A stretch of 64,000 bases of DNA from Bryobacteraceae bacterium (lineage in GTDB: Bacteria; Acidobacteriota; Terriglobia; Bryobacterales; Bryobacteraceae): assembly GCA_025056455.1 (NCBI GenBank), contig JANWVY010000001.1, positions 629,757-693,756 on the forward strand, read 5' to 3'. Under the pieces are notes generated by a model. It did no database searches. It was not told the DNA's origin and worked only from the letters and a program-made list of their open reading frames with translations. How positions within the stretch are numbered: position 1 is the stretch's first letter; the number at the start of each line of letters is the position of its first letter. Shown here one piece after another: positions 36,907 through 39,636 of the stretch. Made by a program: the position numbers and the translations under genes.

Positions 36907-37353
36907 TTACTGTTTCTTTCTCTGGCTATCTTTGGGACTGGACTGGCCACCTTTCTTTTCTGCCTCTTGCTTGGGATAGAGCAGGGGATAATTCTTCTCT
37001 CTCCATTCCTGCAAGCCACAAGAGCCAAGGACCTTGTAGCCCGCTTTGGTCAAGATCTCCGCGGCACGCGCGGCTCTCGAGCCGCGGTTTCAAGCCGTGA
37101 TAATCACTTTGTTTTTCGGAATCTCCGACAGCCGGCTCTCAATCTGGCTTAACGGGATATTGACATAGCCTTGGATCGATCCTAACATCTCGATCTCTTT
37201 GGGCTCGCGGACATCAAGAAAGAACAAATTTTTCTCGTTTTGAAGAAGATCTTTGAGTTCGTCAGCGCTGTATTGCTTGATCTTGGTTTCTTGAGCGCGG
37301 CCCAGGCTCGCCACCCAGCCCAAAAGCCACTGTTTACGCGTTAGTTTAAACAT
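36907..37353 (-). CDS. candidate selenocysteine rhodanese (UGA at the catalytic position), exported
   Basis: If the TGA at 37090-37092 is read through, the frame from 37353 to 36907 gives 148 residues of an ordinary single rhodanese domain. Before it: ETKIKQYSADELKDLL, LFFLDVREPKEIEMLGSIQGYVNIPLSQIESRL and NKVIITA. After it: NRGSRAARAAEILTKAGYK, then GLQEW, the usual rhodanese ending. The TGA (residue 88) occupies exactly the place of the catalytic cysteine in C-x(2)-G-x-R-S/A loops, so selenocysteine is the natural reading. The N-terminus (MFKLTRKQWLLGWVASLGRAQ) looks like a signal peptide, so the product may be periplasmic. The tail is rich in lysine, glutamine and serine. The alternative is a nonsense mutation or sequencing error in a Cys codon. 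No selA, selB, selC or selD is in the window. Confidence 0.6.
37059..37073 (-). promoter_or_regulatory. candidate bacterial SECIS hairpin after the rhodanese UGA
   Basis: On the coding strand, nucleotides 17-21 after the TGA (CCGCG) pair with 27-31 (CGCGG), leaving a 5-base loop CGUGC whose second base is G. A 4-7 bp stem, a G in the first two loop bases and a loop starting about 16-37 bases after the UGA are the published bacterial SECIS rules as I recall them; here the loop starts 22 bases after it. A competing perfect stem, CGCGGCTC with GAGCCGCG (37086-37079 with 37076-37069), also exists. Confidence 0.45.
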
Positions 37354-37415
37354 ATTTGTGCACGACCCCTCGGCTTTTCGGGATTACCCTCCTATCATAG
37401 CAAGGCGCATCAGAT

Positions 37416-38582
37416 TCACCGGGCCGGAGAGCGTGCTTTGCTTCGCGAGAGGTTTTCAAAAAGAAAGAGCCCGCTTTTTCCCGCCACCGCGAAATCCAGG
37501 TCGCCATCGCCATCCAGGTCGGCGACCGGAATCTGCATGCCGCCCCCGGTGCGGCTTGAGTAATCCACGACATGACGAACCCACTGAACACCCTTGCCGT
37601 CGGCGCTGGGAAGTGCTTCATACCAGTAGACGCCAAGCGGCTCCCTCTCCCCCGGATCGCGACCGTTGTGGGCCATAAAGCGCTTTCCGGTAACCAGGTC
37701 AAGCCTTCCGTCACCATTGAGATCGACAAGCGCCGAGGCGTGAGCTTGAGACCACGAGTCATCGATCACGCGCTTTTGAAACTTGCCATCCGCCATTCTC
37801 TCGAACCAGAAAACGCCGTAGTCATGGGCCATGGTGGAGATGATGTCGGTGCGCTGATCGCCGTTTACGTCGTGAACATAGATGCGGCCCAGATGCCCGG
37901 GAGATTCCCAGTCGGCATGGAGCGTCCAGTTTTGCTGGTAAGGATCCGGGGGCGCTTCCAGCCACCCCTTCGGCGTAAGAATATCGGTGCGGCCATCGCC
38001 ATTCACGTCGCCCGCTCCAATCCCGTGTCCGTAGCTTACCGGACTCGCAATGTGTTTCCGCCAAGCGCCCCCTCTCAACTCGTACCAACTAAGGGGAACC
38101 TTGGGTGACCCGAACTGTGGCAACAGCTCACGAGCCTTTCCATCGTTGTTTAAATCCACCATCCAGCAGAATTCGACGTTGCCGGCGTTATCAATTTCGT
38201 GCTCCTTCCAAAGCCCCTGGCCACGCCCGGGGTTCTCCCACCAGGCAATTCGCCGGCTAAACCAGGAACAAGTCACAATGTCAGGGCGACCGTCGCCATT
38301 GACGTCCACTGCATGGTCGCTGAATGCGTCGATGTAGTTGTTGACAAAGTACAAGTCGCGGAAGCGGTGCTTGAGCCAGCGCGGCGCCTCAAACCAGTTT
38401 TCCCCCGAAACGATGTCTAAACGGCCATCGCCGTTGATGTCCGCAAAGGTGCAGGTTTCGTTTGCGCCCAGGTCAATTTCGTGCTTTTTAAATGGAATGT
38501 CAGCAGGTCGCGCCCAGTGGAAGGCGAACGCAGCAAGACTAAGAACGCTCGCTGGCAATAACGCCGATTTCACGGGCTTCAT
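37416..38582 (-). CDS. secreted FG-GAP/VCBS-repeat protein
   Basis: A 388-residue exported propeller. The ATG at 38582 gives a leader (MKPVKSALLPASVLSLAAFAFH); a frame reaching 38828 would run over the divergent amidohydrolase promoter region and is rejected. Calcium-binding FG-GAP/VCBS motifs recur: DINGDGRLDIVSG, DVNGDGRPDIVTC, DLNNDGKARELL, DVNGDGRTDILTP, DVNGDQRTDIIST, DLNGDGRLDLVTG and DLDGDGDLDFAVAG, giving seven blades. The protein probably forms a seven-bladed beta-propeller outside the cell. It ends 62 bases before the rhodanese start on the same strand, so they may share a transcript. No catalytic residues are evident. Confidence 0.85.
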   Translation of the reverse strand: MKPVKSALLPASVLSLAAFAFHWARPADIPFKKHEIDLGANETCTFADINGDGRLDIVSGENWFEAPRWLKHRFRDLYFVNNYIDAFSDHAVDVNGDGRPDIVTCSWFSRRIAWWENPGRGQGLWKEHEIDNAGNVEFCWMVDLNNDGKARELLPQFGSPKVPLSWYELRGGAWRKHIASPVSYGHGIGAGDVNGDGRTDILTPKGWLEAPPDPYQQNWTLHADWESPGHLGRIYVHDVNGDQRTDIISTMAHDYGVFWFERMADGKFQKRVIDDSWSQAHASALVDLNGDGRLDLVTGKRFMAHNGRDPGEREPLGVYWYEALPSADGKGVQWVRHVVDYSSRTGGGMQIPVADLDGDGDLDFAVAGKSGLFLFENLSRSKARSPAR

Positions 38583-38742
38583 TGTATCGAACCTTGACGC
38601 GCTTTGATCTACCGGGCCGCAAGAGTTGGCCTGTACCGTGGTATTCGCTCTCGTCTCCACACGGCAAGCCCTGGGGTCAGAATGAGGGCTTGCAGTTTCC
38701 CGAGCCACTCTTGAGGATGCAGCGATACAATGTGGGTCAACG

Positions 38743-39636
38743 ATGAATTGGAACCGGAGAGATTTTCTATTCGCAGGCGCCGGAATACTGGGAGCGCAGC
38801 CGCAACAGGAAATCCCAATCATTGACATTCATCAACACACCAACTACAGCCGCCGCCCGGATGAGGCCCTGGTTGCACACCAGCGCAAAATGGGCGTATC
38901 CAAGACGATTCTCCTGCCGGCGGGTCGAAAATATGGGTTAGCCGCGCAAGCTGGCGGCAATGATTCGGTGGTGGCGCTTGCTCGTCAGTATCCCAAGGAA
39001 TTCTACTTTTTCGCCAACGAGCTGCCCGATATCCCTGAAACGCGCGAAACGATCGAAAAATACCTAAAAATGGGCGCCATTGGCATCGGCGAACAAAAGT
39101 TCCCCGTCGATTGCGACTCAAAGCCCATGCAACTGATCGCCGAAATTGCCCGAGATTACAAAGTTCCCGTCCTTCTTCACTTCCAGCACGAAGCCTATAA
39201 CTATGGCATCGAGCGCTTTCACAAAATGCTCGAAAAGTATCCCACGGTCAACTTCATCGGGCACGCACAAACCTTCTGGTCCAACATTCACAAGGGGGAT
39301 GAGCAAGTGGTGCTGTATCCGATCGGCAAGGTGACGCCTGGGGGCATCACCGACCGCTTGCTGGCCGACTATCCCAACATGTTTGGTGACCTTTCGGCAG
39401 GCTCTGGGTTGAACGCGCTGCGCCGTGATCCCGATCACGCGCGGGAGTTTCTCAAAAGGCATCAAGACAAGCTCTTATACGGCAGCGATTGCAACGACTC
39501 CGTGGGAGCTGGGCCCAAATGCAGCGGATCGCTTCAACTGGCTCAGTTGCGCGAGCTGTGCCCAGACCGGGCTGCACTGAGAAAAATTCTCTCTGGAAAC
39601 GCCGAGCGCCTCTTTCCGGCCTTAAGATCTCGCTAA
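38743..39636 (+). CDS. amidohydrolase-family protein with Tat signal
   Basis: A 297-residue metal-dependent hydrolase of the amidohydrolase-2 TIM-barrel type. The N-terminus MNWNRRDFLFAGAGILGAQP carries a twin-arginine motif (RRDFL). The first metal ligands are H30-x-H32 in IDIHQHTN. VLLHFQHEAYNYGIERF and NFIGHAQTFW give the later histidines, and LYGSDCND supplies the catalytic aspartate. It starts in the 160-base divergent region next to the FG-GAP gene. Its 3' end overlaps the aroDE stop region by 15 bases (convergent). Substrates of this family include cyclic amides and decarboxylated acids; none can be assigned. Confidence 0.85.
   Translation: MNWNRRDFLFAGAGILGAQPQQEIPIIDIHQHTNYSRRPDEALVAHQRKMGVSKTILLPAGRKYGLAAQAGGNDSVVALARQYPKEFYFFANELPDIPETRETIEKYLKMGAIGIGEQKFPVDCDSKPMQLIAEIARDYKVPVLLHFQHEAYNYGIERFHKMLEKYPTVNFIGHAQTFWSNIHKGDEQVVLYPIGKVTPGGITDRLLADYPNMFGDLSAGSGLNALRRDPDHAREFLKRHQDKLLYGSDCNDSVGAGPKCSGSLQLAQLRELCPDRAALRKILSGNAERLFPALRSR

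Follow-up and report, generated by a model that had tools for sequence, protein, structure and literature searches.

A predicted exported rhodanese selenoprotein of a Bryobacteraceae bacterium, with UGA at the catalytic position and a covarying hairpin downstream

The stretch of DNA analysed here (the window; 64,000 nucleotides of a Bryobacteraceae bacterium, contig JANWVY010000001.1, positions 629,757 to 693,756) carries a rhodanese gene in which a single in-frame TGA occupies the codon of the catalytic residue, and comparative sequence evidence indicates that this UGA very probably encodes selenocysteine (Sec), so that the gene is that of a selenoprotein. The position of the UGA, its conservation, the presence of the Sec machinery and a covarying hairpin downstream are established by sequence comparison. 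The best explanation of the whole, to which we give a probability of about 0.9, is an exported Sec rhodanese with hairpin-directed decoding of the UGA. A preliminary description, made from the letters of the window, had already read the gene as a selenoprotein. That reading is borne out by the Sec machinery of the genome, by the retention of TGA in 56 of 84 distinct homologues, and by the SECIS-like hairpin with its covariation; a conserved cysteine, Cys112, was absent from that description and suggests a Sec-Cys pair.

The interrupted frame and its homologues

The frame opens with ATG at 37353 of the reverse strand, meets its only TGA (37092-37090) directly after NKVIITA, and continues through 60 sense codons to TAA at 36909-36907, exactly where the preliminary description had placed a frame 37353-36907 broken at 37090-37092 (Table 1). 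The read-through protein of 148 residues consists of a hydrophobic leader, one rhodanese domain and a charged tail. It has a single match to PF00581 (53.7 bits against a cut-off of 22.2; residues 29-119, profile positions 1-101 of 102), and thus the rhodanese domain spans the TGA. The active-site loop of rhodaneses comprises six residues with the nucleophile first, C/U-x-x-G-x-R; the TGA is the first residue of the loop UNRGSR, which in the form U-x-x-G-x-R is a full rhodanese loop, and Cys is aligned to it in 22 homologues. The assignment of the TGA to the nucleophile position is therefore upheld both by these relatives and by the domain match. TGA also serves as an ordinary stop in this genome, as in the ORF 37416-38828 just upstream, and if a gene caller took TGA 37090-37092 for one, the predicted ORF would have 87 residues and lack the catalytic centre.

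Table 1. Features of the rhodanese gene in the window (window coordinates)
Feature	Position	Strand	Description and basis
Predicted exported rhodanese selenoprotein CDS	36907..37353	(-)	148 residues, Sec88, stop TAA; reading frame, Pfam domain, homologues
N-terminal hydrophobic leader MFKLTRKQWLLGWVASLGRAQ, predicted export signal	37291..37353	(-)	sequence, hydropathy
Rhodanese domain, residues 29-119	36997..37269	(-)	PF00581; predicted structure resembles solved structures with this domain, such as 3gk5 and 3icr
Codon 88, UGA, predicted to encode selenocysteine at the catalytic site (UNRGSR)	37090..37092	(-)	frame, homologue alignment
Predicted bacterial SECIS hairpin	37059..37073	(-)	stem CCGCG (37073-37069) with CGCGG (37063-37059), loop CGUGC (37068-37064), 21 nt after UGA
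Cys112 codon (GSCGLQEW), the only Cys of the protein	37018..37020	(-)	replaces the first Gly of rhodanese GGxxxW; alignment, homologues

The proposal of an N-terminal leader agrees with the homologues: as judged by hydropathy, an N-terminal hydrophobic 12-mer with a mean Kyte-Doolittle value above 1.6 is present in 54 of the 56 TGA genes, which is consistent with export, and the hydropathy of the leader indicates that the protein is probably exported or secreted. About 40 bases before the ATG lies a TATGAT box (37394-37399), a possible promoter; in loci L032, L044 and L054 the gene is preceded by the same box with similar surroundings (CTATGATGGGA).

A search of 200 genomes of the family gave at least one match with an E-value of 0.001 or lower in 198 of them; the stronger ones, to a limit of E 8.9e-15, were fetched together with two public loci. 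Three listed matches were left out, namely G197:C110 (at a contig edge), G039:C781 (59 residues) and G146:C121 (no stop); there is a TGA inside both of the first two. The 91 raw hits less 7 duplicates gave 84 distinct genes, the public locus L061 being a copy of L033, and the public L062 representing its copy L087 (from G039). The catalytic codon is TGA in 56 of these genes, Cys in 22 and Ser in 6, with no other residue at the site; since the homologues were chosen by likeness to a TGA-bearing query, 56 of 84 is no population frequency. The relatives keep the frame beyond this codon whether it is TGA, Cys or, in one clade, Ser, so that no decay of the frame was found, and the earlier argument against a chance nonsense mutation gains force from the 56 genes with TGA at the same codon and the 28 others with Cys or Ser. 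Beyond the family, in a phylum sample of 297 genomes, seven other than the source genome itself reach E 1e-18; they belong to three other families, and all seven of these distant homologues have an in-frame TGA followed by a Cys at +24. When plasmids were searched for annotated relatives, none of the 346 records obtained reached 60% identity (the best 8 of 346 listed).

Before and after the TGA the codon pattern is similar. The mean differences from 14 relatives at codon positions 1, 2 and 3 are 20.6, 8.1 and 35.6 over the 60 codons before it, and 10.4, 7.0 and 20.6 over the 37 codons after it. With the site masked in the tree calculation, 13 changes of the TGA label are required, 4 of them forced by well-supported branches; Sec was therefore swapped with Cys or Ser, in one direction or the other, more than once. 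The Ser homologues (L110, L111, L112, L113, L115 and L117) form one clade beside TGA members, and all are without the +24 Cys; to judge from these sequences, the rhodanese of this clade seems to have lost both redox centres. Tandem copies were observed in two genomes: in G103 (L041/L063) the first copy has Cys and the second TGA, and in G164 (L044/L070) both have TGA.

Clustering of neighbouring ORFs, with flanks of about 1.5 kb or less, revealed no conserved operon partner across the family, and no constant neighbour that would point to the substrate; several large clusters, being antisense or overlapping frames, were ignored. An FG-GAP-like repeat gene lies upstream in 8 loci, a Gfo/Idh-like gene upstream in 6 of 7 clustered loci, and an aminotransferase-like gene is divergent in 16 loci, all three names being our presumption from the look of the sequences.

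The SECIS-like hairpin and the selenocysteine machinery

When the sequence after the site was scanned for every possible 5-bp stem closing a loop of 3-9 nt, one stem stood out, that of the hairpin of Table 1, which is the best of the many scanned; it pairs columns 20-24 with 30-34 around a loop that is CGUGC in most genes. The full 5-bp stem is present in 47 of the 56 TGA genes as against 1 of the 28 Cys/Ser genes; some of the 9 TGA genes without it have, by eye, a different inverted repeat at the same place. Over the 53 distinct rows 91.3% of the stem cells pair. The column pair 24-30 is G-C in 26 of these rows and C-G in 19, and the pair 21-33 appears as C-G, U-G, U-A or G-C. The covariation score, counted on the same sequences as those used to pick the hairpin, is 0.333 versus 0.137 for shuffles and was reached by none of 500, the best slid version scoring 0.067. 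Two of the five measures in this test were not clearly above the shuffles: 394 of the 500 shuffles had at least the observed 2 pairs with both partners changed, and 89 had at least the observed 6 further pair types. In addition, of the 55 Arg codons that underlie the loop 48 are CGT, versus 29 of 286 Arg codons elsewhere in the examined stretch of the same genes, a bias that points to constraint at the RNA level.

With its flanking bases the hairpin has a folding energy of -7.8 kcal/mol (-6.5 for the bare 15-mer). As set out in the excerpted text of PMC13188914, the bSECIS model has a loop of 3-9 nt, a stem of 4-16 bp, a G in the first two loop positions, a distance of 16-37 nt from the UGA and an energy of -7.5 kcal/mol or lower; a loop of 5 nt with G second and U third, a 5-bp stem, a distance of 21 nt and -7.8 kcal/mol place the hairpin within the model as excerpted. 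For the 48-nt stretch of the window itself it is not the fold of lowest energy, an alternative being more stable. When some 8 nt behind the UGA are excluded from folding, the hairpin takes the place of this alternative, and a ribosome covering those nucleotides would favour the hairpin. RNAalifold applied to the 56 TGA sequences did not choose the hairpin and gave no useful consensus, and the scores of single-sequence folding were mostly unremarkable. Corrected for descent, the associations of Cys, hairpin and selA with TGA come down to only 4 independent tree contrasts, too few for significance.

A search of the source genome (4.98 Mb in 29 contigs, 98.94% complete) for the Sec machinery, which the preliminary description had named as a check, found all of its parts: selA (501.5 bits), selB (373.1 bits), selD (373.1 bits) and a tRNA-Sec (79.3 bits) with the anticodon TCA according to ARAGORN. 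Three other rhodaneses found in this genome have Cys and no inner stop. The selD gene (L027:1531, C11), too, contains an in-frame TGA, which lies early in its reading frame (VKAAGUASK) and is followed shortly downstream by the hairpin GUCCAAA-GGU-UUUGGAC; by its sequence, SelD is probably itself a selenoprotein. An in-frame TGA is likewise found in SRLUHGPTVASL of a formate-dehydrogenase-alpha-like gene (L126, C11:752407-753675, reverse strand), a place that we take to be the usual Sec position of formate-dehydrogenase-type enzymes. These two genes point to at least two further probable selenoproteins in the cell.

Across the family, 53 of the 55 genomes that carry a TGA gene have selA, versus 17 of the 26 with only Cys/Ser genes (Fisher p 4e-4); G113, which has selA, was left out here, its gene duplicating that of G197, and G039 was counted through L087. 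The two TGA-gene genomes in which no selA match was found are G125 (94% complete) and G165 (88% complete). As selA is common anyway (166 of the 200 family genomes, and 96 of the 119 without a fetched homologue) and the independent tree contrasts are too few, we use this association as supporting evidence only.

Cys112, the chemistry of the enzyme and the rival explanations

Cys112 lies 24 residues after Sec88, where the alignment to 3gk5 has the first Gly of GGxxxW. A Cys at +24 is present in 49 of the 56 TGA genes versus 12 of the 28 Cys/Ser genes (Fisher p 4e-5, kinship ignored), and in 47 of the 56 it is the only Cys of the examined stretch. The 7 TGA genes without it have Met (4), Gly (2) or Val (1), the Val member (L073) having a Cys one residue earlier; thus a Sec-Cys pair would not be obligatory. 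In a predicted structure of moderate quality (pLDDT 65, pTM 0.52), whose best Foldseek matches are rhodanese-domain proteins such as 3icr and 3gk5, Sec88 comes directly after strand 83-87 and Cys112 soon after strand 107-109, two strands that are presumably neighbours in the rhodanese sheet.

We propose that the cell's own SelB/tRNA-Sec system would decode UGA 37090-37092 as selenocysteine, its insertion being directed by the hairpin 21 nt downstream. After export the selenol of Sec88 would be the nucleophile, taking up sulfane sulfur or being oxidised; Cys112 could then resolve the Sec88 intermediate as an Se-S bond, which a periplasmic reductase would reopen. The resulting enzyme would be a Sec-Cys enzyme of the sulfur-relay type, handling persulfides or acting in thiol redox. 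For the pairing of Sec88 with Cys112, which is suggested by the alignments, we claim a chance somewhat short of even. More speculative still is its extension to a whole exported rhodanese branch over several Acidobacteriota families, which the comparison of homologues tentatively suggests to be a two-centre redox enzyme, with Sec88, a Cys replacing the first Gly of GGxxxW and an internal selenenylsulfide. Its role, outside the cytoplasm, would be that of a thiol peroxidase or persulfide reductase, and its history would include repeated Sec/Cys switches and one branch (Ser, no Cys) that lost both centres.

The main alternative for the chemistry is one-centre sulfur transfer by Sec, in which the enzyme would be a classical sulfurtransferase, Sec88 alone carrying the persulfide (Se-S-) to an acceptor and Cys112 being structural or incidental. 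We regard this as a serious candidate that falls a little below an even chance. It accords with the complete U-x-x-G-x-R loop, with the 7 of 56 TGA genes that do without a Cys at +24, and with the 12 of 28 Cys/Ser genes that have one. However, it leaves unaccounted for the replacement by Cys112 of a glycine that the three Cys paralogues of the source genome and 3gk5 keep, and the distribution of the +24 Cys, which is kept in 49 of 56 TGA genes and in 7 of 7 distant ones and is absent from all six Ser genes. The sulfurtransferase activity named in the preliminary description is best called putative.

Two further explanations would deny the insertion of Sec. UGA is a leaky stop in many bacteria and the first 87 residues form a complete ORF, so one could suppose near-cognate suppression, or that the 87-residue product is the real one and the rest has decayed. 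Both suppositions are highly improbable: the short product would stop ahead of the catalytic loop and lack the domain's second half, whereas the part beyond the TGA shows sequence conservation and contains the +24 Cys, and the SECIS-like hairpin and the full Sec machinery also speak against them. Least credible is that a Cys codon was changed by a sequencing error or a nonsense mutation or that the gene is a pseudogene, which together with a decayed frame we reject: a single base change would suffice to turn TGC into TGA, but a sequencing error is unlikely given that 55 other distinct genes share this TGA, which also recurs in 7 of 7 distant homologues; the codon pattern beyond it is like that before, and the hairpin is tied to it.

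Relation to known rhodaneses and selenoproteins

The predicted selenoprotein shares fold and loop with single-domain Cys rhodaneses (3gk5, and PspE 2jtq) and with the rhodanese domains of CoA-disulfide or persulfide reductases (3icr, 3ntd). In contrast, the aligned 3gk5 has a Cys nucleophile, and Gly in place of Cys112; the nucleophile is, we assume, also Cys in the other single-domain and reductase rhodaneses (2jtq, 3icr, 3ntd). Among selenoprotein families the protein matches the profile NF041203, rhodanese_LYCAU (rhodanese-related (seleno)protein form 3, CxU), at E 7.6e-11. Membership in that family was rejected, as the score is 41.8 bits against a cut-off of 115 and the C-x-U motif is missing, the residue two positions before Sec being Thr86 and not Cys.

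Rhodanese selenoproteins have been reported from the Sargasso Sea (PMC1088965), in the GOS survey (PMC2398784) and in two reviews (PMC9312934, PMC13188914), as far as the excerpts of these papers extend. The excerpted part of PMC13188914 lists five forms of rhodanese-like selenoprotein, two of them with UxxG. These two, forms 2 and 4, are described as rhodanese-related sulfurtransferases with PF00581 and UxxG (examples MBM9537886.1 and MCY3690685.1), and the present protein resembles them in PF00581, in the predicted Sec and in UNRG at the site, a likeness that refers to the excerpted motif description only. Form 1 (WP_010941598.1), compared by motif description in the same excerpt, is also a rhodanese with a predicted Sec but has UxxS instead of UxxG. 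The main text of PMC13188914 contains none of the words Acidobacteri, Bryobacter and Solibacter.

For the Acidobacteria, an excerpted count gives 4 selenoproteins of 3 families (PMC1794560), and an excerpt of a later paper gives 3 selenoprotein genes in one acidobacterium (PMC12013277), in whose main text the words rhodanese and sulfurtransferase do not occur. Among the matches listed from the open-licence literature, as excerpted, neither an acidobacterial rhodanese selenoprotein nor a Sec-Cys rhodanese mechanism is described, and the excerpts on rhodanese selenoproteins make no mention of the +24 Cys. Since rhodanese selenoproteins of the UxxG type already appear in the excerpted list of PMC13188914, the rhodanese kind is known and the present gene is a further example of it. 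According to the excerpted text of a 2022 review (PMC9312934), the class of predicted selenoproteins is mostly of unclear function; to this class our analysis contributes a well-supported member that has tens of homologues, a SECIS with covariation and several Sec/Cys/Ser switches, and in which the conserved Cys112 makes the chemistry of a Sec rhodanese testable.
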